From positions 1 through 64,000 of the forward strand of contig SUXW01000017.1 of NCBI GenBank assembly GCA_015060765.1: a stretch of 64,000 nt of DNA, in the 5' to 3' direction. The position numbers and the translations under genes were made by a program. The DNA is from Bacteroides sp. (GTDB lineage: Bacteria > Bacteroidota > Bacteroidia > Bacteroidales > Bacteroidaceae). A model generated the notes under the pieces. The model was not told the origin of the DNA. It did no database searches and saw only the letters and a list, made by a program, of their open reading frames with translations. The first letter of the stretch is position 1. The number at the start of each line of letters is the position of its first letter. Shown piece by piece: positions 5,112-52,922 of this stretch.

Positions 5112-5218
5112 GTTATCGGCCAACTTTTTATGTTACATTCATTGAATTTTATTGGCATAATATTAGGGTAATACAAAAAAAATGCCTTATTTTGGCACCT
5201 GAACTTAAATAATGATAC

Positions 5219-5605: not shown

Positions 5606-5651
5606 TTATAAAAAATAGTCAAAATATACCGCTGCTCTGCATTTTTTATGC

Positions 5652-5659
5652 TACTTTTG
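5652..5659 (+). promoter_or_regulatory. -7 box upstream of the LptF/G permease
   Basis: TACTTTTG matches TAnnTTTG and lies 28 bases before the ATG at 5688. A convincing TTG at -33 is not visible. Confidence 0.45.
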
Positions 5660-5687
5660 TACCTTAATTGTTGTACAAGAAGAAAGC

Positions 5688-7589: not shown

Positions 7590-7594
7590 AGATT

Positions 7595-10075: not shown

Positions 10076-10101
10076 GACTTCACTATTTATTTATAAAAAA
10101 G

Positions 10102-10136
10102 AGTGGATGTATCATGTGATACATCCACTTTATTTT
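10102..10136. terminator. Bidirectional terminator between aspC and the S9 peptidase
   Basis: AGTGGATGTATCA and TGATACATCCACT form a 13-bp near-perfect stem (10102-10129). There is an A-rich run before it and TTTATTTTT after it, so it can act on both converging transcripts. Confidence 0.85.
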
Positions 10137-10174
10137 TGGAACCAACTAAAGTATCCTACTTTAGTCTTATACCA

Positions 10175-33200: not shown

Positions 33201-34524
33201 TCATTTGAGCCATCATTCTTACCGCATTAGCCCGATTGGATATTCTATCCTTCTCCGGTAAAATACGCATTGCCCCTTCATTCAATACAGATAGAAGAGA
33301 AACCCCGGTATATTCAGAACTTACCCATATACCCCCATTTCTATCTTCCATTACATTCTGCAAATAATTGGAAGCGATATGACTGCTTCCTTCCATGTCC
33401 GCTACTAAATGTTTCATTTGGTCTGTTTTCAGGTCATAAACAAAAAGTCCGTTTCCATAAGTAGTAATCCAAATGATGTTTCTGGAATCATGTACCACAT
33501 GGATTCGTTCTTCATCCAAATAAGGAAGTAAATGATTGGGGATCAATTGGAATGACTTGATTGCATAAGTCGTAGCATTCACATACCAAACGATACCTGT
33601 ATGGTTATGTATCCAATAATTCCCTTTATTGTCAACAACGACCACACCTCTTTTTATATCGAGTTCGTCACTTCGAGTCAATTTAAAAGATTCCAAATCA
33701 AAAGTAAATCCACCCTCTTCTGTAAAAATGATCCATTGTTCCTTCAAACGAATGGTTCCATACACTCTGGCACCACCGGCTCGTTCAGAAGCGTTGGTTA
33801 CAAACCAACAATTACCCGATGTATCACAAACATGGATTTTCCCTGCACCCGACAAAAAGAATATCTTGTCGCCATATTCTACAACTCGAAAAGCTTCACT
33901 ATTGTCTGTCTTCAACACAAATCTGCCGTTTGTCCATTCGGCCACTCCTTCGGAAGTACCGGCCCAAATTCTTTTATGAGCATCCTCATACATATACGTA
34001 ACCCGATTGCTATGAAGAGTTCCATTCTCTACCTTATATACTTCTGAAGCAAATTCGCCATCTTTATAGACCACTTTTCTACAACCATTACCATCATGCC
34101 ACATCCATATATCTCCATTTGAAGTTTCCAGCTTATCCTTATAATATTGAGTATGCTCCCCACATCCTGTAAAATCAACAAAGCAATCCCTTTTCAAGTC
34201 ATAACAACTGAAGATATTGGGAGTCGAAGATATCCATAAAAAGCCATTGCGGTCTTCTGAGATATCACCTATACGATGGTCTGCCAGTGACATCTTACCC
34301 AATTCCGGCCGGAAAGTCATGAATGAATTGCCATCATAACGGCTCAATCCATTCAAGGTACCCATCCATACAAATCCTTTACTATCCTGATACAACGTAC
34401 GTACAGAATTGTTGGCTATACCATCTCCTGTCGTCAAATGACGGGATCGTATTTCAATGTCTGCAAAAACAGACACATCCAAGAATAAGGAAAGGATTAA
34501 TAATAAGAATACAACCTTCTTCAT
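30250..34524 (-). CDS. Hybrid two-component system regulator (HTCS)
   Basis: The 1,424-residue membrane protein combines sensor and regulator. After a signal peptide (SLFLDVSVFA) come repeated Reg_prop blades with the pattern DSKGFVWMGTLNGLSRYDG (about 25-750) and a Y_Y_Y domain (about 760-845). A transmembrane helix follows (AFLIYAVLISVLLYIAYG, near 857-880). The HisKA domain has NISHEFRTPL (His910), then an HATPase. The receiver carries phospho-acceptor Asp1218 in LIICDVLMPG, and an AraC-type HTH ends the protein (NPQFTVDEFAAAMGYGRTVFYRKV). HTCS proteins bind oligosaccharides in the periplasm and activate the adjacent locus. All catalytic residues are present. It lies centrally in the pectin locus. 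Confidence 0.97.
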   Translation of the reverse strand: MKKVVFLLLILSLFLDVSVFADIEIRSRHLTTGDGIANNSVRTLYQDSKGFVWMGTLNGLSRYDGNSFMTFRPELGKMSLADHRIGDISEDRNGFLWISSTPNIFSCYDLKRDCFVDFTGCGEHTQYYKDKLETSNGDIWMWHDGNGCRKVVYKDGEFASEVYKVENGTLHSNRVTYMYEDAHKRIWAGTSEGVAEWTNGRFVLKTDNSEAFRVVEYGDKIFFLSGAGKIHVCDTSGNCWFVTNASERAGGARVYGTIRLKEQWIIFTEEGGFTFDLESFKLTRSDELDIKRGVVVVDNKGNYWIHNHTGIVWYVNATTYAIKSFQLIPNHLLPYLDEERIHVVHDSRNIIWITTYGNGLFVYDLKTDQMKHLVADMEGSSHIASNYLQNVMEDRNGGIWVSSEYTGVSLLSVLNEGAMRILPEKDRISNRANAVRMMAQMSNGDIWIGSRQGGLYMFDSDMNPKGDNKYFQSNIYAVVEDTEGTVWYGSRGKGLLVGDTWYTNKAYDPMSLSNNNIFAMYRDKKGRVWIGTFGGGLDLAVKSEKGYSFMHFLNGDYSQRLIRSILEDQNGWMWVGTSDGVHVFHPDSLIADPKNYNVYNFANGKLKSSEIKCLFQDSKGRVWVGTTGAGFAMCDQIDDYDNLTFKHFDIQDGLVNNMVQSIVEDFAGKLWIATEYGISKFDPEVHSFKNYFFSTFALGNVYGENSGCISETGKLLFGTNYGLVVITPELIESSSVVIPEVEFTDLKINGISMSPGDVDSSLEYALVYSEEVVLKHFQNSFVIDFSIFDYLKGNETKYTYKLDNYDREWSIPSSLNFAAYKNLQPGTYKLRVKACNSAGVWGEKEAVLKIVVKPPFWKTTWAFLIYAVLISVLLYIAYGVARNFTRLRNRIQVEKQLTEYKLVFFTNISHEFRTPLTLIQGALEKIQYSGKAPKEMSYSLKVMEKSTQRMLRLINQLLEFRKMQNNKLALSLEETDVIAFLYEIFLSFNDAAESKRMDFRFSPSVASYKMFVDKGNLDKVTYNLLSNAFKYTPSEGKIVLTVKVDETANTLIISVSDTGVGIPKEKRNELFKRFMQSSFSSSSVGVGLHLTHELVNVHKGTIEYKENDGGGSIFIVTLPLDTSMYEEKDFLIPHNVLMAEEEKHHTAIAEEQETFESKQDEFASPLNKRKVLIIEDDNDVRDFLKEEIGRYFEVELASDGVSGLEKAKESDADLIICDVLMPGMTGFEVTRKMKNDFNTSHIPIILLTAMHSAESHLEGVESGADAYITKPFSPKLLLARVFKLIEQREKLREKFSSDPTMLRPAICTSDKDKEFADKLLQILEREIANPQFTVDEFAAAMGYGRTVFYRKVRGVTGYSPNEYIRIMRMKKAVELLKENKYTVAEVSYQVGINDPFYFSKCFKQQFGVAPSLFSKTTDGENTAE

Positions 34525-36366: not shown

Positions 36367-38334
36367 TTATTTAAATTCATATCCTCTAAAAATACCTTCT
36401 TTCAAATCTGCGCCAAAATAGAATCCCGGTTGTGTAGGTTGGTTGTATGCCACGTTTTGAGTCACAATACTGATTCGATACGCCGGGTCTTCCAAGAATG
36501 TATGGAAACGATAATTGGTCGGTATCGTTGTTACATACAGGCGCAAAGCCGAGTTATCTTCTGTGCGGAGCAATACCTCTTCCCGCCAGTCGCCTATCAT
36601 ATCACCTTGCAAACAAGGAGTCGCTTTAGTGCCATTGTTCCATACAGTACCTTCAAATACTTGCAACGGTTTACAGACACCTTCGTTCCAATCGTATTTA
36701 TCCACTTTATTCTTATCCAATAATTCACGAAGCAAATCACCATCCCACCAAAGGCCCATGTTTACAGAAAGGCCTTCCATGTTCGGATTAACCACTTCTC
36801 CTTTTATATTGCGGATACCTTGCGATTCCCACGACCACATTTCCAGTCCCGGATTCGTAGGATCAATATCTGCAGCCATACAACGGCCTACATCAATTGA
36901 GCTCTTTATTTGGAAAAGCACTTCACCTGTACCGGCATTGCGAAAACTGCTTCCATCTTTTCTGTTCTCATGGCATGCCCATACCTGCAAGCCTTCCAGT
37001 TCCGGACTGAATTTAGTCAAATGAATAGCATCACCGTGATTCATACCTGTAGAATACAGCCCCGTACCATCATGATCGATGGCGCATTGTCCGTAAACAA
37101 TTTCATCCATTCCATCACCGTCCACATCTCCTACACGAAGGTTGTGATTTCCTTGACCGGCATAAGCTTCATTACCTGGGAGGTTACTGTCGAACACCCA
37201 ACGTTGCTTCAACTCCGTTCCATCCCAATCAAATGCAGCCAACACGGCACGGGTATAATATCCTCTACACATGATTACGCTTGGATGGATACCATCCAAA
37301 TAAGCTACCGCCGCCAAATAACGGTCACTACGATTTGCACGATTGTCTCCCCAATCCTCTAAACGACCACGTTGCGGTACATAATCAATGGTCTGCATAG
37401 CTTTACCTGTCAGTCCTTCAAAAACAGTCAAGTATTCATTACCTGTTAAGATACGTCCTTGATTACGAGGAGTCATCTTACGAGGAAGACGCTTGGCATC
37501 GTTCGGACGTTTTTGCATATTGGCAGGACGTTGACGAGGAGGATTGGGAGCAAGGGTATCTCCTTTTTCACGATAATCGGCAGTTATATCTCCGATAACA
37601 TTTCCCAAACCATCTACAGTGCCGTCCGAAGTCTTCATCACCACTTCGGCACATCCATCACCATCCAAATCATATACCATGAATTGAGTATAATGTGCAC
37701 CTGCACGAATATTATGTCCCAAATCAATGCGCCACAACTTTTCGCCGGTCAAACGATAACAATCAAAATACACATTTCCCGTATATCCATCATGGGCATT
37801 ATCATGCGCATTAGAAGGGTCCCATTTCAAGATGATTTCATATTGTCCATCACCATCCACATCACCCATCGATGCATCATTGGCATTATAGGTATAGGTA
37901 TCTCCTGCAGGCGTAACACCTTCAGCCGGACGATCAAGTGGAATATTCAAATAGCCAAACGGCGCATTCTCCGGCAAAGTATAAATACCCTTTACCGTTT
38001 CCTTTTCTTTACCGTCTACTACAGCCTTCACTTCGTAAACTGCTTTTTCCATTCCGGCATAAGCATCTTTATAAAAAGTACCTTGATTGGCTGGAACTTC
38101 TGCTATTTTTTCACCATTCCGATACACATTGAATGATGTTTTCAACGGATCAGAAGACAAATATCTCCAGGATACAATTACAGACTCCGGATTCTCACGA
38201 ACCGCAACTACTCCACGATTCAAACTATCCTTTTGCATTTTCAGTTCGGCTTCCCCACATGATTGTAGAGAAAACCCCAAGAGAGCTACCCACAGCAGAT
38301 GCATTGAACTCAAGCGTTTTTTTTCGTTTTTCAT
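36367..38334 (-). CDS. PL11 rhamnogalacturonan lyase, lipoprotein
   Basis: The 655-residue lipoprotein has lipobox FSLQSC. An N-terminal fibronectin-like domain (SVIVSWRYLSSDPLKTSFNVYRNG) leads into the eight-bladed propeller of PL11. Its calcium-binding DxDGDG repeats (MGDVDGDGQYEIILKWDPSNA, VYDLDGDGCAEVVMK, VGDVDGDGMDEIVYG) and MIGDWREEVLLR are plain. The enzyme splits the rhamnose-galacturonate backbone of rhamnogalacturonan I by beta-elimination. The lipoprotein leader suggests the outer surface or periplasmic face. Its residue pattern is full and uninterrupted. Confidence 0.95.
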   Translation of the reverse strand: MKNEKKRLSSMHLLWVALLGFSLQSCGEAELKMQKDSLNRGVVAVRENPESVIVSWRYLSSDPLKTSFNVYRNGEKIAEVPANQGTFYKDAYAGMEKAVYEVKAVVDGKEKETVKGIYTLPENAPFGYLNIPLDRPAEGVTPAGDTYTYNANDASMGDVDGDGQYEIILKWDPSNAHDNAHDGYTGNVYFDCYRLTGEKLWRIDLGHNIRAGAHYTQFMVYDLDGDGCAEVVMKTSDGTVDGLGNVIGDITADYREKGDTLAPNPPRQRPANMQKRPNDAKRLPRKMTPRNQGRILTGNEYLTVFEGLTGKAMQTIDYVPQRGRLEDWGDNRANRSDRYLAAVAYLDGIHPSVIMCRGYYTRAVLAAFDWDGTELKQRWVFDSNLPGNEAYAGQGNHNLRVGDVDGDGMDEIVYGQCAIDHDGTGLYSTGMNHGDAIHLTKFSPELEGLQVWACHENRKDGSSFRNAGTGEVLFQIKSSIDVGRCMAADIDPTNPGLEMWSWESQGIRNIKGEVVNPNMEGLSVNMGLWWDGDLLRELLDKNKVDKYDWNEGVCKPLQVFEGTVWNNGTKATPCLQGDMIGDWREEVLLRTEDNSALRLYVTTIPTNYRFHTFLEDPAYRISIVTQNVAYNQPTQPGFYFGADLKEGIFRGYEFK

Positions 38335-40102: not shown

Positions 40103-40133
40103 AAAAAAAGGCCACCCCATGCGGAGCGGCCTT
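40103..40133 (-). terminator. Terminator of susCD operon A
   Basis: On the minus strand, AAGGCCGCTCC pairs with GGGGTGGCCTT (two G-U pairs, loop GCAT) and runs into seven T residues. It matches the terminator of the other susCD operon at 52893 in both position and flanking sequence. Confidence 0.85.
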
Positions 40134-40172
40134 CATTATCATTTGTTAACCTATTGATATTGATTGGACTGA

Positions 40173-42290
40173 TCACCAACCTTCATTCTGCCATTTTGCT
40201 TTTTCTGCGTCAGACAAGTTATTACCGTTTTCATCCTGCAAAGCATCGATAAATGTTTGTGGAATCGGACGACGGTTATGTCTGTCTTGTACGTTAGCAG
40301 CAGCTTCTGGATTGAATGCCTTGGCACGCTTCACCAATGTTTCTGTACGAGCCAATTCTTCCCAACGGTTCCATTCGCCCAAACATTCACGAGTACGTTC
40401 GTTCAAAATGAAGTGAATCATACGTTCCTTGTCACCGCTTGCACCAATTGCAGTCAAGATAGCTTCGTCTTCAGCTGGAAGTTGGGTATAGCTTGCAATC
40501 TGTAAGTTAGAAGCTTCTGTAGTACGTTCAATACCTGTTGACAAATAGTAAGAGTTCTTTTGTGGGAATGAATACTTAAATGCTTGACGGTTAGTTAAGA
40601 TAGTCTTTCCGTCTAGATCCTTATTCTTCTTCACTGTGTTGGCGTCAGCTGTTGAATTGTCAGAGTCTCCTCCGTATTCTTTCAAGAATGCCATAGAACC
40701 GTCTGTGTAATATTCACGGTCTTCACCAGCTTTCCATTCTGCACGCTTGCGAAGTGTATTAACTGTTGTAATGGCAGCATCGTATTGACCTAAACGTACT
40801 TGACATTCAGCCTTAATCAAGTAAGTTTCACCGGTACGAGCCATGATAACGTCGCGATGAGCATCGCCCTTTTCAGCGGTACGGCTACCATCTTCTGTCT
40901 TGTTGATACCACAGAATACATTTGATGTAGCAGTGTTGCCACTTACACCGTAATTATACATCGCATATTGACCACCCAAGTATACAGGGAATACATTGGG
41001 CACCCACTTTCCAGTTTCAGGATGAACGAAAGAGTGTTCTACACCACCGCGACCGAATGTACCGTAAGTAGTTTCGTCTTGGAAACGTGGATCATCCTTC
41101 TTATTCAAAATAAACAAAATACCATAGTCGCCCAATGTTGGAACATTGTCAGCTGCTACATAATCAGGAGCACCTTGCCAATGATTGATACCATAAATGG
41201 TTTTGAATGTCTTCCACATACGGGCATCGTTTACATTATCAAATGATGCGTAAGCGTATTCTGTAGGACGGCAACGTTGGAAGTCCATACCACCAATATA
41301 CTGACCACGTTGTACCCAACCACCTGAGAAGTTAGAGAATTGCGGAGTGAAGTAGTTGTAAGTACGGTTACCAAAACGACCAACAGCAGAAGAAGTATGT
41401 TGTGCAGACATCAAGATTTCATCCAAGTCTTCATTGGCACAGTCAATACCTGTCCACTTAGCATACAAATCATTGTAGTCAGGAGCTAACGGACAAGCCT
41501 GAATAACTTCGTTACACAAAGTGATTGCCTTGTTCAAGTCTGTATCAGCTGGATAAGAACCGTTGAAATCACTACAACGCTCTGATTGACGATAAAGCAA
41601 TGCCTTAGCCAAGAAGTGGGCAGCAGTGTACTTGGTCCAAGTACCTGTACCACGCCATTTGTCTGTTGGCAACAAGTTGTAGGCTTGTTCGAAATCTGCA
41701 ATTACTTGATTAATCATTTCTTCTTCAGTAGCACGAGTAAAACTTTTTACTACACCTTCTGTTGCTTGCAATTGCAATACAGTAGCACCATACTGAGCAA
41801 AAAGTCGATAGTAATTATAGCCACGAAGGAAGTGAGCTTCACCCAAGCATTTGTTACGTATAGCCTCGTCAGTTACGCGATCTGCATAAGTGATAATGGT
41901 ATTCGCTGTAGAAATACCATAATACATTTGATCCCACAAACCAGATACTGGAGGACAGTTCTTGTTGGCAGCACCATTAGCTTGAGTACAGTCCATGGAT
42001 TGCAAACGGCTATCGTAGGTATTCCAAGGCTCTGCAGTCAAGTCGGCACCATTAGTAAATTCGTCTGTACCATACAATGTGATACCATAGGCCCATTCAT
42101 AACCAAAATGCCAACGGATATTGGCATAAAGAGCAGTAGCCAAGTCCTGCATACCTTGAGCACTTTCAAAGTATTGGGTAGAGTAAGCGGTACGGTTGTC
42201 TTCTTCCAAGAAGCTGTCACCGCAAGAGGAAAAACCGGTCATTGCTGCAACGACCAAGCCCGCTGTAAGAAATTTGTTATATCTTTTCAT
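40173..42290 (-). CDS. SusD-like glycan-binding lipoprotein A
   Basis: The 705-residue lipoprotein has lipobox MTGFSSCGD. It follows the SusD/RagB plan, with LRGYNYYRLFAQYGA, the TPR-like helices around WTKYTAAHFLAKALLYRQ, GETYLIKAECQVRLGQYDAAI, and the C-terminal LNERTRECLGEWNRWEELART. SusD forms the lid over its SusC partner and captures oligosaccharides at the surface. It is larger than classic SusD (about 550 residues), as is its paralogue at 50767. It is cotranscribed with susC A, 47 bases downstream. Confidence 0.95.
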   Translation of the reverse strand: MKRYNKFLTAGLVVAAMTGFSSCGDSFLEEDNRTAYSTQYFESAQGMQDLATALYANIRWHFGYEWAYGITLYGTDEFTNGADLTAEPWNTYDSRLQSMDCTQANGAANKNCPPVSGLWDQMYYGISTANTIITYADRVTDEAIRNKCLGEAHFLRGYNYYRLFAQYGATVLQLQATEGVVKSFTRATEEEMINQVIADFEQAYNLLPTDKWRGTGTWTKYTAAHFLAKALLYRQSERCSDFNGSYPADTDLNKAITLCNEVIQACPLAPDYNDLYAKWTGIDCANEDLDEILMSAQHTSSAVGRFGNRTYNYFTPQFSNFSGGWVQRGQYIGGMDFQRCRPTEYAYASFDNVNDARMWKTFKTIYGINHWQGAPDYVAADNVPTLGDYGILFILNKKDDPRFQDETTYGTFGRGGVEHSFVHPETGKWVPNVFPVYLGGQYAMYNYGVSGNTATSNVFCGINKTEDGSRTAEKGDAHRDVIMARTGETYLIKAECQVRLGQYDAAITTVNTLRKRAEWKAGEDREYYTDGSMAFLKEYGGDSDNSTADANTVKKNKDLDGKTILTNRQAFKYSFPQKNSYYLSTGIERTTEASNLQIASYTQLPAEDEAILTAIGASGDKERMIHFILNERTRECLGEWNRWEELARTETLVKRAKAFNPEAAANVQDRHNRRPIPQTFIDALQDENGNNLSDAEKAKWQNEGW

Positions 42291-42337
42291 AATTCTATTT
42301 TCTATATTCTATAATTAATTAACAATAAATGACCGGA

Positions 42338-45300
42338 TTAGAAACCTAATTGTACACCGAAGGTTACACCACGGTTGTAGTAAGTAGTACCCAAATCAAG
42401 GTCGATAAAGTCAACTGAAGAATAGAGGTTTCCAAGGTTCTTGCCTTGTGCATAAACCTTCAAGGAACCGATACCTAACTTGTTGCAAACGTTCTTCGGG
42501 AAGTTATAACCTAAAGAAATGTTGCGAACTTTGATAAATGATGCATCTTTGTAACCCAACAAAGCAGAGTAAGAGTCACCACCAGCTGTGCTATAGACAG
42601 GCTTTTGCCATTCTGCATCAGTATTATCAGGAGTCCAGTAATCGATTTCACGCTGAGCGTACATACCCAACTGACCTTCACCACCAGTACTAATCATATA
42701 ACCGAAACGGCCATACAGATCAACTGTCAATTCCAATCCTTTCCAAGAGAAGGTATTGCTCCAACCGCCCATAAAGTTTGGATTTCTCTTTCCTAAAATT
42801 ACACGGTCTTCGTCGTCAATCTTGTAGTCACCGTTTTGGTCAACCGGACGAACGCTACCGGCAGAGAACTTATGGCCATTTTCATTGAACTTAGCCATTT
42901 CTGCAGCGTCGCTTTCTTGCCACAAACCGGCATTGTCAATACCATAATATATACTCATAGATTCACCGATGAACCAAGCATTGGCTATGTCGTCTACTTT
43001 ACCATTAGACAATTCAACGATTTCATCTTCGTTGTAAGTTAGATTCAATGTAGTATTCCATTCAAAATCCTTAGTTTGAATAGGGATAGCATTCAAAGTC
43101 AAGTCAAAACCATAACTCTTGGTTTCACCAATATTGGCCATCATGTTCGGGAACCCTGTCAATGTAGGAATCTTCATATTCATCAACACATCAGTAGTTC
43201 TGGAATGATAAATATCCAATGCACCATTGATACGACCGTCCAAGAAACCAAAGTCTACACCATAGTTCCATTGAGTAGTCTTTTCCCATGTCAATTCCTT
43301 ATTGGCCATACCTACAGAATTACTAGTATAATAAGGTTCGTTTGTAGCGTATGCTTGAGTCAAAATGCCACCGAAAGGAACGAAGAATGATTGTATGTTA
43401 CCCAAAGTACCATAAGCACTTACTGATTCATTACCTGTAGTACCTACACCTACACGGAGTTTTAATTGGCTAACCCAATCAATGTCTTTCATAAATTCTT
43501 CTTGATCAATGCGCCAACCAAGTGCTGCAGATGGGAAGAATACCCATTTGTGGCCGGCAGCTAACTGTGAAGCACCGTCATAACGTCCTGATACAGTCAA
43601 CAAATACTTGTCTTTATAGGCATAATTCACACGAGCCATGTAAGAAGCCATTGCTTTTTCTGTTAATCCTGTACCCATACCAGCACCATAAGTTGCAGCA
43701 TCTGTAATATCTACAGAACCCAGATTATACCACCAGAAGTGTTCGTTAGGTATCTGATTAGCACTCATGCTACCACTTTCCTTACTATATTTAGAAGCAC
43801 TTTGGATAAGTGTTAAATCAAAACGATGATCACCAATCGTTTTGTTATACATCAAGAAGTTATCCAATACCCATGAGAAATAAGTATCGTTGGCATATTT
43901 AGCATAATTCTTACTACCGGCCTTGACAGCAGAATCCTTGCTGATGAAGATACCTTGACGGTAATTTCGGAAGTCAGGACCGAATGAAGTCTTGAATGTC
44001 AAACCTTCCAATGGTTCCCAAATCTTACCGAAATCAACTTGTGCATAGAATGAACCAAGTGCACGGAAAGTCTTGCGGTTATCGGTAGACTTGTTCCATT
44101 CGTCGATTACTGTATATACATTAGTTACAGAACCGGCTGGGTTAGTTACGATGCTGCCATCATCTGTATAAGGAACAGCAAAACGAGGAATAGCCTTAGA
44201 AGCCGAGTAAATGTCTACCGGACCAGAAGAAGAAGACTGGCCAGTACGAGAATAACCATAATCTTGAATAGCATAAGAAGCATTGATAGAACCACCCATC
44301 TTGAACCAAGGCTTGGCTTGGATATCTACAGTTGCAGCTACGTTATAACGTTCATATTCCTGTCCCTTCTGAGTACCTTGATTGTTCAAATAACCTACAG
44401 AGAAAGAAGCCTGCATGTTTTCAGTACCACCATTAGCACTCAACGTATGTTCGTGAGTGATACCAGTACGAGTAACAATGTCAGCCCAATCTGTGTTGCT
44501 TACTTTGGAACCATCCCAATTACCGCCTGACCAACCTTTCATAACGTTAGCAGTTGCGTATGGGTCATCACCGCCAAAGTAGTCAGCATCCTTAGTTTGA
44601 GAAGGTTGGTCTCCACGTGGATTGTTCACAGGGTCGGCATTGTAATAAGCCCAACGACGCCATGTGATATAATCGCTTGCGCTCATGGCCGGAGACTTGT
44701 CCACCAAGTTTTCCATAGTCACTGTACCCGAGTAGTTCAACTGAAGAGCTCCTTGCTTACCACGTTTGGTCGTTACCAAAACAACACCATTTGAACCACG
44801 AGCTCCATAGATAGCTGTAGAAGATGCATCCTTCAAAATGTTAATGCTTTCAATGTCACGAGGGTTGATAGATTCAATACCACCTGCACTCAATACTACA
44901 CCGTCTACTACATACAAAGGACCATTACCTCCAGACAAAGAGCGGTTACCACGAATACGGATCGTACCTACGGTACCAGGTCGTTCGCTTGATGTGATAT
45001 CCACACCGGCAGCTTTACCTTGAAGAGCTTCAAAAGCATTGGCTACTGGACGAGCATTCAATTTTTCACTGTCTACGCTAATCAACGCACCGGTTACGTC
45101 AGATTTTTTCTGAACGCCATAACCTACTACTACCACTTCGTCCAGCATTTCAGTATCTTCTGCCAAAGTTACCTTGATAGAAGTCTTGCCTACAACGGAA
45201 ACGTCTTGAGTTTTGTAACCTACGAAGCTGATTTGAATAGTTCCATCGTTAGGAACACCCTGAAGAGAGAAATTACCGTCGAAATCGGTAATTGTACCGT

Positions 45301-45487
45301 TGGTAGTACCTTTCACTACCACACTTGCACCAATTACGGGTTCACCTGTCTTGTCGACCACTGTACCCGAAACAGATTTGCTTTGTGCACTGGCTGTAAT
45401 CGCCAATACTGACAACAAAGCAACAAAGAACAATCGCTGGACTTTGTCCAAGCAATTAAACAGATTTGCATTCTTTCTGTTCTTCAT
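42338..45487 (-). CDS. SusC-like TonB-dependent transporter A
   Basis: The 1,049-residue outer-membrane protein has leader LLSVLAITASAQ. A CarboxypepD_reg-like domain follows (KSVSGTVVDKTGEPVIGASV), then the TonB box region EVVVVGYGVQKKSDVTGA. The plug contains SINILKDASSTAIYGARGSNGVVLVTTKRGK, and the barrel ends in NRGVTFGVQLGF. It imports glycan bound by SusD A, using TonB energy. The first 84 codons are nearly identical in DNA to the divergent paralogue at 47615, while the rest is much more diverged. It has the only perfect -7 box of the pair. Confidence 0.97.
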   Translation of the reverse strand: MKNRKNANLFNCLDKVQRLFFVALLSVLAITASAQSKSVSGTVVDKTGEPVIGASVVVKGTTNGTITDFDGNFSLQGVPNDGTIQISFVGYKTQDVSVVGKTSIKVTLAEDTEMLDEVVVVGYGVQKKSDVTGALISVDSEKLNARPVANAFEALQGKAAGVDITSSERPGTVGTIRIRGNRSLSGGNGPLYVVDGVVLSAGGIESINPRDIESINILKDASSTAIYGARGSNGVVLVTTKRGKQGALQLNYSGTVTMENLVDKSPAMSASDYITWRRWAYYNADPVNNPRGDQPSQTKDADYFGGDDPYATANVMKGWSGGNWDGSKVSNTDWADIVTRTGITHEHTLSANGGTENMQASFSVGYLNNQGTQKGQEYERYNVAATVDIQAKPWFKMGGSINASYAIQDYGYSRTGQSSSSGPVDIYSASKAIPRFAVPYTDDGSIVTNPAGSVTNVYTVIDEWNKSTDNRKTFRALGSFYAQVDFGKIWEPLEGLTFKTSFGPDFRNYRQGIFISKDSAVKAGSKNYAKYANDTYFSWVLDNFLMYNKTIGDHRFDLTLIQSASKYSKESGSMSANQIPNEHFWWYNLGSVDITDAATYGAGMGTGLTEKAMASYMARVNYAYKDKYLLTVSGRYDGASQLAAGHKWVFFPSAALGWRIDQEEFMKDIDWVSQLKLRVGVGTTGNESVSAYGTLGNIQSFFVPFGGILTQAYATNEPYYTSNSVGMANKELTWEKTTQWNYGVDFGFLDGRINGALDIYHSRTTDVLMNMKIPTLTGFPNMMANIGETKSYGFDLTLNAIPIQTKDFEWNTTLNLTYNEDEIVELSNGKVDDIANAWFIGESMSIYYGIDNAGLWQESDAAEMAKFNENGHKFSAGSVRPVDQNGDYKIDDEDRVILGKRNPNFMGGWSNTFSWKGLELTVDLYGRFGYMISTGGEGQLGMYAQREIDYWTPDNTDAEWQKPVYSTAGGDSYSALLGYKDASFIKVRNISLGYNFPKNVCNKLGIGSLKVYAQGKNLGNLYSSVDFIDLDLGTTYYNRGVTFGVQLGF
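45233..45409. repeat. Left arm of 177-bp inverted repeat inside susC A
   Basis: Read on the minus strand this block matches 47690-47866 with only four mismatches, including a 60-base and a 49-base perfect run. It covers codons for the end of the leader and the CarboxypepD_reg-like domain. The two copies face each other across the recombinase gene. Confidence 0.9.
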
Positions 45488-45517
45488 ACTTTAATTATTA
45501 AGTTAAACAAAAGTTAA
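45470..45517. repeat. Left arm of 48-bp inverted repeat at the susC A start codon
   Basis: It matches 47585-47632 in inverted orientation with a single mismatch. It spans the 30 bases before the ATG, including TTAACTTTTGTTTAAC, and the first six codons. Outside it, the upstream sequences are unrelated. Confidence 0.9.
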
Positions 45518-45834
45518 TTAAATCTCTTTTTCATGTAGCACATACAAATATGCATGGAAACACGGTGCAAATATATCCGAGAATTTAATCAATTAAAATG
45601 AAGAATCGTACAAAAACATGGAAAAAATGGTCACATGATAGCTTGTATGCAAGATATAATGAAATACAATATCAAAATATATAGAGTGAAGAGCATTTTG
45701 GATATATCCTCTTTGTAAAATGTGGAATATTTGTTATCCGATTAAAAAATTAAGACGCATGATGCAATGAAATGTCGATGAAATGGCTTATTTTTAAAGA
45801 AAAAATATTGTTTATCCATTAAATTATTTTGCAA
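45488..45834. other. Intergenic region between susC A and the recombinase gene
   Basis: This 347-bp A/T-rich stretch holds the susC A leader and promoter near 45568 and the start side of the 48-bp inverted repeat. Beyond 45600 there are only weak -7-like strings such as AATATTTG and the TTATTTTG touching the recombinase start. No small gene, terminator or tandem repeat was seen. Confidence 0.6.
45568..45575 (-). promoter_or_regulatory. -7 box of susC A
   Basis: TATATTTG on the minus strand is a perfect TAnnTTTG, 80 bases upstream of the ATG, giving a leader of about 74 bases. No TTG is found at the usual -33 distance, so activation by the HTCS or another factor is likely. The divergent susC B has no perfect box at all. 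Confidence 0.55.
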
Positions 45835-47013
45835 ATGGCTATTTTATCCATTGTTGTTGTACCAACGAAAGAAATGGCGAATGGACGGAACCGGATACGT
45901 ATATCCGTTGCACATCGTTCACAAACAAGGTACATTTCCACTCAATTTGTCCTTGACTCTTCCAAACAATTGAAAAACGGGAAAGTAGTAAAACATGAAA
46001 ATGCTGATAGGATCAATCATGCTTTGCGGAAGATAATTTATGAGTACGAAGAAATCCTTTCGGAAGCAAGTGGATTATCTTCGTTGTCGTGCACGGAGGT
46101 TGTACATCTCTTATTGAACAAGAGAGAAAAAAAAGAGAAAACGTTCAATGACGTCATGCAAGAATACCTATCCACCATGCAAACGGAAGATCGGCATAAA
46201 TCTTATAAATTGTATAAAATAGCAGGTGGCAAATTGATGAAATATATGAAAGGGAATTTTGCACTTTCTATCGTTTCACCAGCATTGATTGAAAAATATT
46301 CTCATAGTCTGGAAGAAGAAAAGCTATCTTCTACGTCCATCCGTATTTATCTGTCTTTAATAAAAGTCTTATTGAATTATGCCATAAAGATGAACTATGT
46401 GAACTACTCCGTCCACCCTTTCACATTTTTTAAGATGCCCATAGCACACATTCGTGAGATTGACTTATCGGTGGAGGAAATAAGGCTCATTCGAGATGTG
46501 AATCTTACAAAAAGCGTTCATGTTTATACGCGTGACGTTTTTTTGCTTACCTATTATTTAGGAGGTATGAATTTGCGCGATTTAATGGCATATAATTTTC
46601 AAAATCAGACAGAAATGCGTTATATCCGCCATAAGACTCGCCAAAACAAAAAAGACAAAACTTTCATTACATTTACCATTCAGCCCGAAGCGACAGAAAT
46701 CATTAATAGATATATACAATCAGACGGCAAATTGTCTTTTGGCCCCTATCATACCTACGAGAAAGTATATAGCATGGTGTTCCGCTATTTGAATACAGTA
46801 GCTTGTTTGGCTGGAATTACTCGTAAAGTATCCTATTATTCAGCCCGTAAAAGCTTTGCGCAGCATGGATATGAATTGGGTATTCCCATAGAGCGGATAG
46901 AGTATTGTATCGGACATAGCATGAAAACCAACCGCCCCATATTCAACTACATACGGATTATGCGCGAACATGCCGACAAGGCTTTCCGTATGATATTGGA
47001 TGAATTACGATAA
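45835..47013 (+). CDS. Tyrosine recombinase between the divergent susC genes
   Basis: The 392-residue product starts at ATG 45835; the TTG two codons earlier is less likely. It has an N-terminal arm-binding region, a SAM-like core-binding domain (TFNDVMQEYLSTMQ to NYVNYSVHPF) and a catalytic domain. Visible active-site residues are Arg248 in GGMNLRDLMAYN, a Lys in KTRQNKKDKTF, Arg338 in YYSARKSF, His361 in CIGHS and Tyr372 in FNYIRI. The usual HxxR has Tyr335 in place of His, as in some Bacteroidetes relatives. Enzymes of this class invert promoters or shuffle surface genes in Bacteroides. No phage, conjugation or tRNA attachment context is present. Confidence 0.9.
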   Translation: MAILSIVVVPTKEMANGRNRIRISVAHRSQTRYISTQFVLDSSKQLKNGKVVKHENADRINHALRKIIYEYEEILSEASGLSSLSCTEVVHLLLNKREKKEKTFNDVMQEYLSTMQTEDRHKSYKLYKIAGGKLMKYMKGNFALSIVSPALIEKYSHSLEEEKLSSTSIRIYLSLIKVLLNYAIKMNYVNYSVHPFTFFKMPIAHIREIDLSVEEIRLIRDVNLTKSVHVYTRDVFLLTYYLGGMNLRDLMAYNFQNQTEMRYIRHKTRQNKKDKTFITFTIQPEATEIINRYIQSDGKLSFGPYHTYEKVYSMVFRYLNTVACLAGITRKVSYYSARKSFAQHGYELGIPIERIEYCIGHSMKTNRPIFNYIRIMREHADKAFRMILDELR

Positions 47014-47063
47014 TTCTCACCCGTTTCTGTAATAACTCAGGGAATTCCTTTTTCTCATGCCAT

Positions 47064-47074
47064 TCTTGCAACAG
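47064..47074. repeat. Outer inverted repeat, left arm
   Basis: TCTTGCAACAG is matched exactly in reverse complement at 47474-47484. Weaker similarity of roughly 70 percent by eye extends inward for about 90 bases on each side. Confidence 0.6.
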
Positions 47075-47133
47075 TCCTTTAACTCATTGAAAATCACGAC
47101 AGATACGGTGGCAAGAGGCTACAATCTCTTGCA

Positions 47134-47145
47134 ACCCTTGCAACA
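47134..47145. repeat. Inner inverted repeat, left arm
   Basis: ACCCTTGCAACA is matched exactly in reverse complement at 47402-47413. The arms enclose 256 bases. Confidence 0.6.
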
Positions 47146-47215
47146 AGTTGCTCTAAGCACTATAAAAAGCCATTTCTTATATATGAATTTTAGGATAAAT
47201 CAAGATGAAAATCCT

Positions 47216-47278
47216 AATCAGCGTCGGCGATCAACGAATCAGCGTCGGCGATTAACGGATCAGCGTCGGCAATCGGGC
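47216..47278. repeat. Three-copy 21-bp tandem repeat
   Basis: Units start at 47216, 47237 and 47258. Copies 1 and 2 differ by one base; copy 3 is degenerate in its last third. The core is ATCAGCGTCGGC. The array is bracketed by CCTAATCAGCGTCG and the near-complementary CGACGCGGATTAGG at 47285-47298, so it could fold as one large hairpin. It is GC-rich compared with its A/T-rich surroundings. Confidence 0.8.
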
Positions 47279-47401
47279 GATCCGCGACGCGGATTAGGTT
47301 TTAAAGTCCTATTATTCTAATTTTACATAGAGAAAAATAGCTTTTTTTCAGCCTTTAAAAAGGATTATAGTTATCTCCTTAGAAGAGGGCCTAAAAACAA
47401 G

Positions 47402-47413
47402 TGTTGCAAGGGT
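47402..47413. repeat. Inner inverted repeat, right arm
   Basis: TGTTGCAAGGGT is the exact reverse complement of 47134-47145. Confidence 0.6.
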
Positions 47414-47473
47414 GACAAGGCGTTGCAAAGCTCTTGCCACATTATTTGCAGTGGAAATCAATTTGTTAGGAGG

Positions 47474-47484
47474 CTGTTGCAAGA
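47474..47484. repeat. Outer inverted repeat, right arm
   Basis: CTGTTGCAAGA is the exact reverse complement of 47064-47074. Confidence 0.6.
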
Positions 47485-47584
47485 GTGGCAAGAGAATTTT
47501 CTTTATGTAGAGAGTAAAGAATGAAGTTAACTTTTGTTTAAATTTATTCCTTTAATCGAGAAGAAAAAATGACTTTCTGTTCAG

Positions 47585-47632
47585 TTAACTTTTGTTTAAC
47601 TTAATAATTGAAGTATGAAGAACAGAAAGAAT
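47585..47632. repeat. Right arm of 48-bp inverted repeat at the susC B start codon
   Basis: It pairs with 45470-45517 with one mismatch (47610). It contains TTAAC-N6-TTAAC and the first codons of susC B. Confidence 0.9.
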
Positions 47633-50600
47633 TCTCTGTTTAACTGCTTGGGTAAAGCCCAACGGTTGTTCTTTGTTGCTTTGTTATCTGTATTGGCGAT
47701 TACAGCCAGTGCACAAAGCAAATCTGTTTCGGGTACAGTGGTCGACAAGGCAGGTGAACCCGTAATTGGTGCAAGTGTGGTAGTGAAAGGTACTACCAAT
47801 GGTACAATTACCGACTTCGACGGTAATTTTTCTCTTCAGGGTGTTCCTAACGATGGAACTATTCAAGTAAGCTTCGTAGGTTACAAGACTCAAGACATTT
47901 CTGTTGCCGGAAAATCGTCCGTAAAAATTACTTTAGCGGAAGACACTGAAATGTTGGATGAAGTGGTGGTTGTAGGTTATGGTGTTCAAAAGAAATCCGA
48001 CGTAACTGGTGCGTTGACACGTGTGGATGCTGAGCAATTGAATGCGCGTCCCGTAAGTAACGCATTCGAAGCCTTGCAAGGTAAAGCAGCTGGTGTGGAC
48101 ATTACATCAAGTCAACGTCCGGGTACTTTGGGAACAATTCGTATCCGTGGTCAACGTTCTTTGAATGCAACAAGTGAACCGCTATATGTAGTAGACGGTG
48201 TACCCTTGAGCGCAGGTGGTATTGAATCATTGAATCCACGTGATATTGAATCTATCGACATTTTGAAGGATGCTTCTTCTACAGCTATCTACGGTTCTCG
48301 CGGTGCCAATGGTGTTATTTTGGTAACAACCAAGCGTGGTAAGGTAGGTCAATTCGCACTGAATTATTCAGGTACATTGACTTTAGAATCAATCGATGAT
48401 AAGTCTCCGGTTATGTCAGCCAGCGAATATATCACATGGAAGCGTTGGGCACATTATAATAATAACAGCGAAAAATATGCTCCAGGTAATGCACCGACTT
48501 ATGAAAACGACCAAATGATATTTGCCGGTGACACTAATGCTCTTGCTAATATTAATAAAGGATGGGCTGGCGGTTCTTGGGACCCTTCCAAGGTTGCTAA
48601 CACCGATTGGATAGATTTTGTAACTCAAACGGGTATTACTCACGAACATACATTAAGTGCTAATGGGGGTACTGAAAATTTGCAAGCTTCTTTCTCTTTC
48701 GGTTACTTGAACAACGAAGGTACGCAGAAAGGACAAGAATATGAACGTTACACTATTTCTACAACAGTAGACGTTACTCCGAAACCATGGTTAAAATTGG
48801 GTGCTTCTATCAATATGTCGTATGCAACCCAACAATATGGTGTTGACCGTATGGCAGGAACTAGCAGTGGCCCTAAGGATATTTATGGATTGGCAAAGGC
48901 TATTCCTCGTTATGCAGTTCCATTTGACGAAGATGGTGATATTATCGCTACTCCGCATACCGAATCTCGTACATATACAGTAGTGGACGAATGGAAAAAG
49001 GTAAATGATGAACGTCAGAACTATCGTGCATTGGGTAGCTTCTATGCTCAAGTTGATTTTGGTAAAATTTGGGCACCGTTGGAAGGCTTGAGCTATAAGT
49101 TTGCGTTCGGTCCGGATTTCCGTTATAACCGTAATGGTATTTTCCGCGATTCTTCTTCTGCATCTTTGGCCGGTTCCAAGAACTATGCAAGTTGGGGCAA
49201 TAACCGTTATTTCTCTTGGACATTGGATAACATGATTCTGTATAACAAGAAATTTGGCAAACATAATATTGGTGTTACTTTATTGCAAACAGCTTCAAAG
49301 AATAGCCATGAAAGAGGTTCTATGAGTGCATCAGATATCTTGGTCCCTGAAATGCTTTGGAATAACATGGGTATCGTTGATATTACACAGGCTCGTTATT
49401 CTGCGGGCATGAGCACAGGATTGACTGAAAGTCAGTTGGCTTCTTATATGGCTCGTGTCAACTACTCATTCAATGATCGCTACTTGTTGACTGTTTCTGG
49501 TCGTTATGATGGTTCTTCTGTATTGGCAGCCGGTAACAAGTGGGACTTTTTCCCATCTGCAGCACTTGGTTGGCGTATGGATCAGGAAGATTTCATGAAG
49601 GATATCAATTGGATTGATCAGTTGAAACTTCGCGTAGGTATGGGTACTACAGGTAATGCTTCCGTGAATGCTTATGGAACACTTGGTGCCATCAGTTCAT
49701 ACTGGATGCCGTTCAGCACCGGTAATACCATGATTTTTGTAACCAACGAACCTTACTACTCATCTGGTAGCAACAAGATGCCTAACAAGGAATTGGGTTG
49801 GGAAAAAACCACTCAATGGAACTACGGGGTAGATTATAGCTTCTTGAACGGACGTATCAACGGTAGTGTTGATGTATATCATTCTATAACAAGTGATTTG
49901 TTGATGCAAGTAACCATTCCATCTTTGTCGGGTTATCCTTCTATGATGCAGAATATCGGTAAGACCAAGAACTTTGGTGTGGATTTGTCATTGAATGTAA
50001 TTCCAATCCAATACAAAGACTTTGAATGGACATCTTCTATCAATGCTGCTTATCAAAAAGAAAAGATTGAAGAACTTGCCAATGGTAAGAACGATATGGT
50101 AGACAACAGATGGTTCATCGGTGAATCAATCAATGTTCTCTATGACTTTGAAGTAGATGGCATTTGGAAAGAAGAAGATGCTGCAGAAATGGCCAAATGG
50201 AACGAAAATGGCAACAAGTTCAAAGTGGGTATGGTAAAACCAGTTGACCAAAACGGCGACTACAAGCTCGACGCTAATGACGACAAAGTAATCTTGGGTA
50301 GCAGAACTCCACGCTGGACTTTGGGATGGTCGAATACATTCACATGGAAAGGTTTGGAATTGGGTATTGAACTCTATGGTCGCTTTGGCTATATGATTTC
50401 AACAGGCGGTGAATCACAAACCGGTCAATTCCAACAACGTCAAATTGACTATTGGACTCCAGAAAACAAAAATGCTGAATGGCAAATGCCTATCTACGGT
50501 TCAGGTGACTCTTATGCAGGCTTGTTAGGTTACAAGGATGCTTCTTTCTTGAAGTTGCGCAACATTTCATTAGGTTACAACATTCCTAAGAATATTTGCA

Positions 50601-50746
50601 ATAAGATGGGTATCAGTTCTGTAAAGGTTTATGTTCAGGGTAAGAACCTCGGTAACGTCTATTCATCCATTGATTATATCGACCTTGACCTTGGAACATC
50701 ATACTATAACCGTGGTGTAACCTTTGGTTTGAATGTAGGATTCTAA
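47615..50746 (+). CDS. SusC-like TonB-dependent transporter B
   Basis: The 1,043-residue paralogue of susC A has the same leader, CarboxypepD_reg-like domain, EVVVVGYGVQKKSDVTGA segment, plug (SIDILKDASSTAIYGSRGANG) and barrel ending NRGVTFGLNVGF. Synonymous codons differ often in the barrel but hardly at all in codons 26-84. This indicates recombination or gene conversion between the two 5' ends. The differing barrels and plug loops suggest related but distinct ligands. It is followed by susD B after 20 bases. Confidence 0.97.
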   Translation: MKNRKNSLFNCLGKAQRLFFVALLSVLAITASAQSKSVSGTVVDKAGEPVIGASVVVKGTTNGTITDFDGNFSLQGVPNDGTIQVSFVGYKTQDISVAGKSSVKITLAEDTEMLDEVVVVGYGVQKKSDVTGALTRVDAEQLNARPVSNAFEALQGKAAGVDITSSQRPGTLGTIRIRGQRSLNATSEPLYVVDGVPLSAGGIESLNPRDIESIDILKDASSTAIYGSRGANGVILVTTKRGKVGQFALNYSGTLTLESIDDKSPVMSASEYITWKRWAHYNNNSEKYAPGNAPTYENDQMIFAGDTNALANINKGWAGGSWDPSKVANTDWIDFVTQTGITHEHTLSANGGTENLQASFSFGYLNNEGTQKGQEYERYTISTTVDVTPKPWLKLGASINMSYATQQYGVDRMAGTSSGPKDIYGLAKAIPRYAVPFDEDGDIIATPHTESRTYTVVDEWKKVNDERQNYRALGSFYAQVDFGKIWAPLEGLSYKFAFGPDFRYNRNGIFRDSSSASLAGSKNYASWGNNRYFSWTLDNMILYNKKFGKHNIGVTLLQTASKNSHERGSMSASDILVPEMLWNNMGIVDITQARYSAGMSTGLTESQLASYMARVNYSFNDRYLLTVSGRYDGSSVLAAGNKWDFFPSAALGWRMDQEDFMKDINWIDQLKLRVGMGTTGNASVNAYGTLGAISSYWMPFSTGNTMIFVTNEPYYSSGSNKMPNKELGWEKTTQWNYGVDYSFLNGRINGSVDVYHSITSDLLMQVTIPSLSGYPSMMQNIGKTKNFGVDLSLNVIPIQYKDFEWTSSINAAYQKEKIEELANGKNDMVDNRWFIGESINVLYDFEVDGIWKEEDAAEMAKWNENGNKFKVGMVKPVDQNGDYKLDANDDKVILGSRTPRWTLGWSNTFTWKGLELGIELYGRFGYMISTGGESQTGQFQQRQIDYWTPENKNAEWQMPIYGSGDSYAGLLGYKDASFLKLRNISLGYNIPKNICNKMGISSVKVYVQGKNLGNVYSSIDYIDLDLGTSYYNRGVTFGLNVGF
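47690..47866. repeat. Right arm of 177-bp inverted repeat inside susC B
   Basis: It matches 45233-45409 inverted. Mismatches are at 47750, 47800, 47815 and 47830; only the first changes an amino acid. Confidence 0.9.
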
Positions 50747-50766
50747 TATTTATTGTTAAACATTAA

Positions 50767-52857
50767 ATGAAAGTGATTATGAAAAATATAAATAAAGTAT
50801 TGTCGGGCGTTCTTATTGCCTCACTGACATTAGGAGCAACCTCATGTGGTGACGGTTTCTTGGAAGAGAATGCAAGTCACACTACTACCGATGCATTGCT
50901 CGAAACCGGTCAGGGAGCATTGGCTATGGCTGCCGGTCTGTATGGTAACTTACGTTGGCATTTTGGTTACGAACATGCTTATGCTACTACTCTTTATGGT
51001 TGTGATGAATTCTCCATGGGATCGGACGAAACCTCATTGGGCTGGATGGATTATAACTCGGCTGAAATGAATCCTGCCGGTTCTTCTCGTCGTAATCATC
51101 CATCGCCAGCAGATTTGTGGAATGAACTCTATTATGGTATTTCTACCGCCAACTTGCTTTTGCAGAAAGCACCCAACATTGCTTCAGAACAAGACCGTAA
51201 ATCCGCTATGGGTGAAGCTTATTTCTTGCGTGGTTATAACTACTATCGTTTGTTCTGTCAGTATGAACGTTGTCCGTTACAATTGGAACCATTGGATGTA
51301 AGTGGTGGTGTACCTCGTAACTTTAAATTGGCAAGCGGTGAAGAAGTCTTGAATCAAGTAATTGATGACTTGCAGAATGCTTATGAGAATTTAAAAACAG
51401 ACAATTGGCGTGGTGCCGGTACATGGACTAAGTATACCGCAGCTCATTTCTTGGCAAAGGCTTTGTTGTATCGTCAATCTGAACGTTGTACATGGAAGAG
51501 CAATTATCCTGCCAAGGCCGATTTGGACCGTGCTATCAAGCTTTGCGATGAAGTTATCTCTGCTCGTGGTTTGGAAGCTGATTACAACAATCTTTATGCT
51601 AATTGGACAGGCGTGGATTGTGCTATTGAAAAGTCTTCAGAAGTATTGATGGCCGCTTTGCATAACGAAGCTTCTACAACCCAAGGTCGTTTCGGTAACC
51701 GTTCATACAACTATTTCTCACCACAATTCAATACTTTCTCTGCAGGTTGGGTACCTCGTGGTCAGTATATTGGTGCTATGGACTTCCAACGCTGTCGTCC
51801 TACAGAATATACTTATGCCTTGTTTGACAACGTGAACGACTCACGTATGTGGAAAACGTTCAAGACTGTATATGGTATTTGTAGTTATGTAAAGACTCCG
51901 GATTATGTCGCTCCAGAAAACGCACCGACTTTGGGTGACCAAGGTATTGTTTTCTTGCTTAACAAGAAAGATGATATGCGTTTCCGTAAATCAGAATTTG
52001 GTAATGGTAAAACAGAACATACATTTATAAACCCGGAAACAGGTAAATGGGTTCCTAACGTTGTTCCTATTTATGCAGATGGTGAATATGTAATGAACCA
52101 ATATGGTACTACAGCTCCTAACCGTGCAAATATGTATTGCGGTATCAACAAGACCGATGACGGTAGCCGTACAGCTGAAAAGGGTGATGCACACCGTGAC
52201 GTAACCATGGCACGTGTAGGTGAAACTTACCTTGTAAAGGCTGAATGTCAGGTTCGTAATGGTGACGATGCCGGTGCATTGGAAACAATCAATGCTCTCC
52301 GTAAGCGTGCTGAATGGAAAGAAGGTGAAGACCGCGAATACTATGTAGACGGTTCTATCGCATTCAAGAAGAATTCAACAGCTTCCAGCAATACCGCAAA
52401 GAAAAATAAAGCGGCTGATGGTAAGACATTATTGACCAACCAACAAGCATTCGAATATTCATTCATCCAGAAGAACTCTTACTATTTGTCAACAGGCATT
52501 GAACGCACTACAGCTGCTTCTAATTTGCAAATTGCAAGTTGGAATGAAATCCCAGAAGCAGATAAAGCCGTTCTTGACAAAATGGGATTGAACATCAGTA
52601 CAGTTGAAGGTAAGGTTAATTTCATCTTGAATGAACGTACTCGTGAATTGTTGGGTGAATGGAACCGTTGGGATGAATTGAGCCGCACAAAGACTTTGAT
52701 CAAACGTGCTAAGCTCTTTAACCCTGAAGTTCTCTATATTCAAGAGCACCACAATCTTCGTCCAATACCTCAAGTATTCCTTGATGGTTTGACAAACGAT
52801 GCTGGTGAACCTTTGACAGATCAGGAAAAGAAAGAAATGCAGAATCCTGGATATTAA
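50767..52857 (+). CDS. SusD-like glycan-binding lipoprotein B
   Basis: The product is 696 residues from the first ATG; an ATG at 50779 (MKNINKVLSG) gives a cleaner leader. The lipobox is LGATSCGD. It is collinear with SusD A throughout, sharing WTKYTAAHFLAKALLYRQSERC, GTRAEKGDAHRD-like text and the ending LNERTRELLGEWNRWDELSRTKTL. It is the surface lid for SusC B. The pair is an inverted duplicate of operon A. Confidence 0.95.
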   Translation: MKVIMKNINKVLSGVLIASLTLGATSCGDGFLEENASHTTTDALLETGQGALAMAAGLYGNLRWHFGYEHAYATTLYGCDEFSMGSDETSLGWMDYNSAEMNPAGSSRRNHPSPADLWNELYYGISTANLLLQKAPNIASEQDRKSAMGEAYFLRGYNYYRLFCQYERCPLQLEPLDVSGGVPRNFKLASGEEVLNQVIDDLQNAYENLKTDNWRGAGTWTKYTAAHFLAKALLYRQSERCTWKSNYPAKADLDRAIKLCDEVISARGLEADYNNLYANWTGVDCAIEKSSEVLMAALHNEASTTQGRFGNRSYNYFSPQFNTFSAGWVPRGQYIGAMDFQRCRPTEYTYALFDNVNDSRMWKTFKTVYGICSYVKTPDYVAPENAPTLGDQGIVFLLNKKDDMRFRKSEFGNGKTEHTFINPETGKWVPNVVPIYADGEYVMNQYGTTAPNRANMYCGINKTDDGSRTAEKGDAHRDVTMARVGETYLVKAECQVRNGDDAGALETINALRKRAEWKEGEDREYYVDGSIAFKKNSTASSNTAKKNKAADGKTLLTNQQAFEYSFIQKNSYYLSTGIERTTAASNLQIASWNEIPEADKAVLDKMGLNISTVEGKVNFILNERTRELLGEWNRWDELSRTKTLIKRAKLFNPEVLYIQEHHNLRPIPQVFLDGLTNDAGEPLTDQEKKEMQNPGY

Positions 52858-52892
52858 TTCCAGTATCAATAGGTTAACAATCGATAATGAAG

Positions 52893-52922
52893 GCTGCTCC
52901 ACGTGGAGCAGCTTTTTTTTTG
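52893..52922 (+). terminator. Terminator of susCD operon B
   Basis: GCTGCTCCAC-GTGGAGCAGC is a perfect 20-base palindrome followed by ten T residues. The sequence just before it (52865-52900) is conserved in operon A. Confidence 0.9.

Follow-up and report, generated by a model that had tools for sequence, protein, structure and literature searches.

The window, a 64,000-nucleotide stretch of Bacteroides sp. DNA, belongs to contig 3 of a genome that measures 2.89 Mb and is 84% complete. It contains two paralogous susC-susD units arranged as mirror images with a tyrosine recombinase gene between the two susC starts. This layout had been proposed in a preliminary description, and Pfam and NCBIfam assignments agree with it:

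40173..42290, minus strand: susD_L, SusD-family lipoprotein (Pfam SusD_RagB and SusD-like_3)
42338..45487, minus strand: susC_L, SusC/RagA importer (TIGR04056), downstream of the putative cassette promoter in the assembly
45835..47013, plus strand: tyrosine recombinase, 392 aa, within the predicted invertible segment; identified by Pfam, alignments and fold matches
47615..50746, plus strand: susC_R, importer (TIGR04056), without an outward promoter box in the assembled orientation
50767..52857, plus strand: susD_R, SusD-family lipoprotein (Pfam SusD_RagB)

The same window holds an HTCS gene (30250-34524) and a gene for a family-11 rhamnogalacturonan lyase (36367-38334), and neighbouring genes encode a PL22-type lyase, GH88, GH42, GH106 and GH2 enzymes, and esterases. 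By gene content this looks like a rhamnogalacturonan locus, and the HTCS and rhamnogalacturonan enzyme genes bear out the earlier claim of a pectin locus with an HTCS. Pectin fragments are probably the cargo of both SusCD importers. Inverted similarity of about 70-83% spans the two operons, including their terminator-like ends (40103-40162 and 52861-52920), and is simply paralogy alone. The long susC inverted repeat was therefore discounted and dropped as evidence for inversion, since paralogues alone produce such repeats.

The recombinase carries the Pfam domains Phage_int_SAM_5, Arm-DNA-bind_5 and Phage_integrase, the last scoring 27.2 bits against a cut-off of 27.1. Its predicted structure is of moderate quality with a poor C-terminal part (mean pLDDT 68.9, pTM 0.45); the best fold matches of this model are lambda Int and XerA (E 4e-5, TM about 0.3-0.5), and XerH is also among the matches. 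Together, the catalytic domain and the modelled fold place the protein in the tyrosine recombinase superfamily. A sequence search against the PDB gave no matches. Because the methionine at 45835 is invariant in all 13 aligned recombinases (the window and 12 relatives), the TTG listed as the start (45829) probably lies two codons upstream of the true one, and a start at 45835 gives the 392-aa protein. K269, Y337, R340, H363 and Y374 are likewise invariant across the 13 sequences and are presumably catalytic, with Y337 standing where His is usual; the first catalytic Arg was not located in this alignment. The window gene is intact. Two related loci, L016 (8001-9175) and L017 (8001-8880), have recombinase matches split over two reading frames, so these copies may be decayed or mis-sequenced.

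Sites and promoter of the predicted cassette

The segment between the operons is bounded by an inverted pair of short sites. We call the arm on the recombinase 5' side the P arm and the opposite one the T arm:

45498..45516, minus strand: P-site, the predicted left recombination site; exact 19-mer, 10 bp before the susC_L ATG
47586..47604, plus strand: T-site, the predicted right recombination site; exact 19-mer, 10 bp before the susC_R ATG
47528..47546, plus strand: degenerate extra site copy, 2 mismatches, 58 bp inside the T-site; found by sequence search
45498..47604, no strand: predicted invertible cassette, 2,088 bp between site centres; relatives have the opposite orientation
45568..45575, minus strand: candidate -7 box TATATTTG, Bacteroides-type, facing susC_L; the sole outward TAnnTTTG in the arm
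45597..45622, minus strand: operator-like element TCCATGTTTTTGTACGATTCTTCATT, upstream of the promoter; from the P-arm alignment

The 19-mer TAACTTTTGTTTAACTTAA has exactly two perfect copies in the 2.89-Mb genome, the inverted pair listed above, and window shuffles yield on average 0.02 matches to it when up to 3 mismatches are allowed. Its sequence divides into AGTTAA, CTTTTGT and TTAACT, which would make it a pair of inverted half-sites, GTTAA and TTAAC, separated by a 7-bp asymmetric spacer, CTTTTGT. It lies within a longer match, 45470-45522 against 47580-47632, which is 94% complementary and extends 35 nt upstream of the susC start codons; together with the exact site pair, this match upholds the proposal that the susC 5' ends form inverted repeats. 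L004 also has an extra site copy similar to that of the window.

The site follows the recombinase through related genomes. An inverted site pair (at most 2 mismatches) surrounds the recombinase gene in 18 of 19 related loci whose recombinase is at least 50% identical, the sole exception being G438, where the contig ends and leaves a single site copy. The recombinase led to 14 genomes (50-68% identity to that of the window); in 13 of them, all but G438, a 20-bp form of the site (at most 2 mismatches) is present as the flanking inverted pair and, one additional degenerate copy in G427 aside, is absent elsewhere. Five further loci have the site pair (L060, L061, L062, L067 and L092). The sites of L010 and L067 do not adjoin the ATG but lie about 200-240 nt from susC. 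More broadly, exact copies occur in 8 of 399 sampled genomes of the family, our own included. The genus of the window also contains G060, whose site coordinates coincide with those of P. vulgatus ATCC 8482, and is therefore probably Phocaeicola. In the genus to which L005 belongs, 23 of 149 sampled genomes have copies that differ from the site at one position at most. G458 and G558 each have one-mismatch sites distant from the locus; these have no susC or susD match within the 14 kb examined and were judged to be chance. Where the spacer differs, the two copies of a locus share the change (CATTTGT in L011 and L060, CTTTGGT in L092), as expected of a crossover region. More distant recombinase relatives (L086-L091, L093 and L094; 30-46% identity), for two of which, L089 and L091, the stretches covered are short, show within those stretches neither a susC or susD match reaching 60 bits nor, near the recombinase gene, an exact inverted repeat of at least 13 bp; the association is thus one of the closer clade.

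A scan for E. coli-type sigma-70 promoters found them no more often than in shuffles (8 versus a mean of 8.8), and we therefore adopted TAnnTTTG, which we take to be the Bacteroides -7 promoter consensus. Across 19 loci, a set that leaves L092 outside, 17 of 19 P arms have an outward-facing TAnnTTTG located 58-61 nt ahead of the P-site (L014 and L015 do not), compared with 0 of 18 T arms and 5.7% of random 130-mers drawn from three loci. A TTG occurs 15-25 nt upstream of the box in 12 of the 17 box-bearing arms and is absent from that of the window. On the other side, the plus strand of 47014-47585 contains no TAnnTTTG facing susC_R. By this motif, a single cassette promoter appears to face susC_L in the assembly, with susC_R lacking a recognisable one. 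It had been suggested that inversion would exchange the promoters of the two operons. A swap of promoter and leader stands, but because only one outward box was found, the promoter would move rather than two being exchanged.

Upstream of the box, the operator-like element has a single match in the genome when up to 2 mismatches are allowed, and it is conserved within the examined part of the P-arm alignment; a stricter form of it is absent from the G428 and G430 cassettes. HTCS operators are described as direct repeats in an excerpted account (PMC3878776), and TCCATGTTTTTGTACGATTCTTCATT is a putative operator of this kind. The arm between the recombinase and the T-site has two other features, a 21-nt unit (ATCAGCGTCGGCGAT...) repeated three times in tandem at 47217-47296 and a 66-nt imperfect inverted repeat (47052-47117 and 47431-47496; 74%) that is rich in TTGCAAG and is perhaps an insulating hairpin behind the recombinase.

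Both orientations among relatives

We compared flanks, defined as everything outside the sites, among 14 named loci plus the window, and then extended the comparison to 20 loci (190 pairs, 49 of them above the score threshold), counting L018, L020 and L022 as repeats of L004, L008 and L015, and L021 as a repeat of L092. The 49 scorable pairs comprise 18 in opposite orientation, 25 in the same orientation and 6 that are ambiguous, with the proviso that pairs are not independent and that paralogous susC flanks can blur single calls.

The clearest cases are close relatives. L005 (B. stercorirosoris) and L006 (a Bacteroides MAG) have cassettes that are 97.8% identical, and the PL22 flank, which adjoins the T arm in L005 and the P arm in L006, is 99.09% identical over 7,554 bp from base 1. 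Similarly, the P flank of L015 (P. intestinalis) matches the T flank of L092 (G026) at 98.98% over 6,670 bp from base 1. At both pairs of junctions the crossover is confined to about 20-24 bp of the shared site. Both flanks are exchanged between L013 and L016 (81% for L013 P with L016 T and 78% for L013 T with L016 P, from base 1). L010 is opposite in orientation to L011 and L012; its P flank matches the T flank of L011 at 82% from 238 nt beyond the L010 site, and its T flank matches the P flank of L011 at 70-72% from about 95 nt beyond. The strain names of L010, L011 and L012 suggest isolates, which makes MAG misassembly unlikely as a general explanation. In orientation the window agrees with L004, which is closest to it among the loci, and with L005 and L008. 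The T flank of the window matches the P flank of L092 at 75% over 5.2 kb, from about 110 nt beyond the site; the susC_R operon, apparently silent in the window, has as its counterpart the operon on the promoter side in L092. Relatives are thus not fixed in one orientation, and the oppositely oriented ones back the proposed inversion of 2.1-2.6 kb that takes in the recombinase and both upstream regions.

Based on these data, we propose that the 2.1-kb segment between the inverted sites is, with high probability, an invertible cassette with its own recombinase and a single outward promoter. Recombination between the two inverted site copies, with the crossover 10-30 bp before the ATG, would flip the cassette and so join promoter and leader either to susC_L-susD_L, the state of the assembly, or to susC_R-susD_R. 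The recombinase encoded within the same 2.1 kb would do the flipping, presumably at random, and expression would follow orientation, so that cells probably alternate which importer is made. Flipping may be ongoing in the window strain. The nearby HTCS might act through the cassette, setting when the locus is on, while the cassette would set which SusCD pair is made.

In a separate observation, two contigs of G488 (L072, 1-275, and L073, 8339-8480) end in a near-identical promoter arm next to different susC genes. Since the arms differ at 4 of 157 aligned positions and G488 has no recombinase match, the presence of both switch states in this one assembly is only suggestive.

Turnover and exchange at the sites

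Another reading treats the site as a place where whole susCD modules are gained and lost between direct site copies, with inversion as a side effect. It draws on G008 (probably P. dorei; 97% identity to P. vulgatus), where the site has a third copy and an extra 11.7-kb susCD block lies between two direct copies; without the block, the order would resemble that of P. vulgatus. Likewise, L006 has a different susCD at the position of the L005 susCD, followed by a susD 3' remnant that matches L005 over 583 bp at 98.1% and 230 bp at 91.7%. Orphan sites also lie 10-14 nt before susC in other genomes. However, direct copies occur in one genome only, and the susC at the distal copy of G008 resembles P. 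vulgatus at 85% over its first 866 nt and at only 67.6% beyond, so that ordinary recombination is possible there too. As the primary function of the site we regard module gain and loss as improbable. As an addition to the invertible cassette it fares somewhat better, and we tentatively entertain a combined switch and docking port, whose recombinase might also insert, excise or swap susCD modules at direct sites.

The partners of the cassette vary in other ways. Both flanks of L009 (B. faecis) begin with a fasciclin-domain gene followed by susC and susD (5271-7598 and 9497-11830), and the P flank of L011 has two fimbrillin-like genes before susC. TAnnTTTG lies upstream of 9 of 12 orphan, split or distal sites, including L074, where the spacing is different. 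No recombinase match at E <= 1e-40 was found in 8 of the 10 genomes with orphan or split sites, and the other two have only matches of 29-31% identity; these sites look like cassettes locked on after recombinase loss.

The susC genes themselves bear on a different alternative, in which inversion proceeds by homologous recombination between the long susC inverted repeats and the recombinase is a passenger. In the window, dS between susC_L and susC_R is about 0.06-0.4 in intervals that span codons 1-100 and about 0.6-3.7 or undefined further on, so the first 95 or so codons are near-identical at silent sites and the rest saturated. In L008 (P. vulgatus ATCC 8482), the first 120 codons of two susC genes that otherwise differ greatly are identical at the DNA level, followed by identity of 70% and below; the 5' ends are 95-98% identical in L017 and 96-98% over the 87 codons compared in L014, and L004 is intermediate (93%, then 84%). 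Homologous exchange or gene conversion would homogenise 5' ends in this manner, fully in the window, L008, L014 and L017 and partly in L004. The susC 5' ends are not homogenised in L007, L013, L016 or L062, and L006 has susC on one side only. Against homologous recombination as the flipping mechanism, L005 and L006 are flipped although one flank starts without susC and the repeat found is about 42 bp, L013 and L016 have only about 55 bp of near-identical sequence, and the site spacers vary jointly in both copies. We therefore give this alternative little credence. Because silent-site identity is confined to the susC 5' ends, the arms of some lineages must also exchange sequence, whether through gene conversion or through crossing over repeatedly. 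The possibility raised earlier that inversion swaps N-terminal domains is not upheld: the site lies 10 bp upstream of the ATG, so inversion would swap promoter and leader and spare the coding sequence, while the homogenised 5' coding ends indicate that some exchange reaches into the genes.

Finally, that these are static divergent paralogous operons with the recombinase a non-flipping remnant of the duplication fits the shared orientation of L004 and the window, and many Bacteroides integrase genes are mobile-element remnants, but this is already contradicted for the group by relatives (18 of 49 scorable pairs opposite, two with flanks about 99% identical), the recombinase is intact in the window and susC is found in all 14 named loci, leaving it highly implausible.

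As a minor point, the promoter-side susC of L008 is split at about 5102-6126 by roughly 1 kb of sequence that the G008 copy lacks. About 6 bp are common to the ends of this insert, which is likely an insertion sequence.

Relation to known inversion systems

Nakayama-Imaohji reportedly described a SusC/SusD shufflon with the tyrosine recombinase Tsr0667 in B. fragilis (J Bacteriol, 2009). In the flagellar Hin/fljBA switch of Salmonella, as in the predicted cassette, the recombinase gene and an outward promoter lie inside the flipping segment; Hin is a serine recombinase and unrelated to the one studied here. According to excerpts of two reports, Tsr0667 switches SusC/SusD clusters and is a master invertase acting on three such clusters and nine other regions (PMC4747536, PMC11852207). 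Inversion by a tyrosine recombinase that chooses a SusC/SusD pair would be common to both systems, and the susC arrangement and orientation differences among our relatives fit a choice among susC genes. As Tsr0667 is described in those excerpts, the cassette differs in having its recombinase inside the segment and its exact site solely as the flanking pair; rather than many regions under one recombinase, the window genome has this pair and one degenerate neighbour.

Region EE of B. fragilis is an intergenic shufflon whose inverted repeats overlap susC/ragA start codons, and one promoter serves alternative genes, as we propose for the cassette (PMC5729914). There the alternative genes are brought downstream of an invertible promoter, whereas in the cassette promoter and recombinase would turn between two stationary operons. 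Nutrient-receptor shufflons of B. thetaiotaomicron, as outlined in PMC12548429, are likewise a phase-variable choice of surface receptors. The Bacteroides capsule-promoter invertons, as excerpted from PMC12118408, have palindromic GTTAC/GTAAC repeats (for example, GTTACTTCTTAGGTAACGGA) and resemble the cassette in their inverted half-sites, 7-bp spacer, nearby tyrosine invertase and internal promoter. They differ in half-site (GTTAC/GTAAC versus GTTAA/TTAAC), in size (about 180-345 bp) and in having the recombinase precede the inverton, whereas the cassette contains it. In the open-access literature searched, TAACTTTTGTTTAACTTAA appears in no paper, and we found no description of a self-contained cassette with its own site, one promoter and two importer operons. 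SusC/SusD inversion being already known in B. fragilis, the self-contained recombinase and promoter cassette is best called a variant.

If our proposal is true, a heritable coin-toss operates within a substrate-induced pectin locus, with the HTCS deciding when and the cassette deciding which importer. Recombinase, promoter and site move as a unit that recurs in genomes bearing the labels Bacteroides, Phocaeicola and Mediterranea, so the reason why importers are phase-varied, be it phage escape, immune escape or bet-hedging on glycans, becomes directly testable. Turnover of susCD against the site suggests a route by which new importers enter old loci, and a combined switch and docking port, if true, would amount to an integron-like renewal of nutrient importers across gut Bacteroidaceae.

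According to an excerpt of PMC11892184, TonB-receptor and SusD-family genes have one group of invertons enriched in their vicinity in a defined community. In human gut metagenomes, regions near SusC/SusD and PUL promoters invert, Phocaeicola dorei included, and some of these invertible regions could be the cassette described here (PMC10939037).
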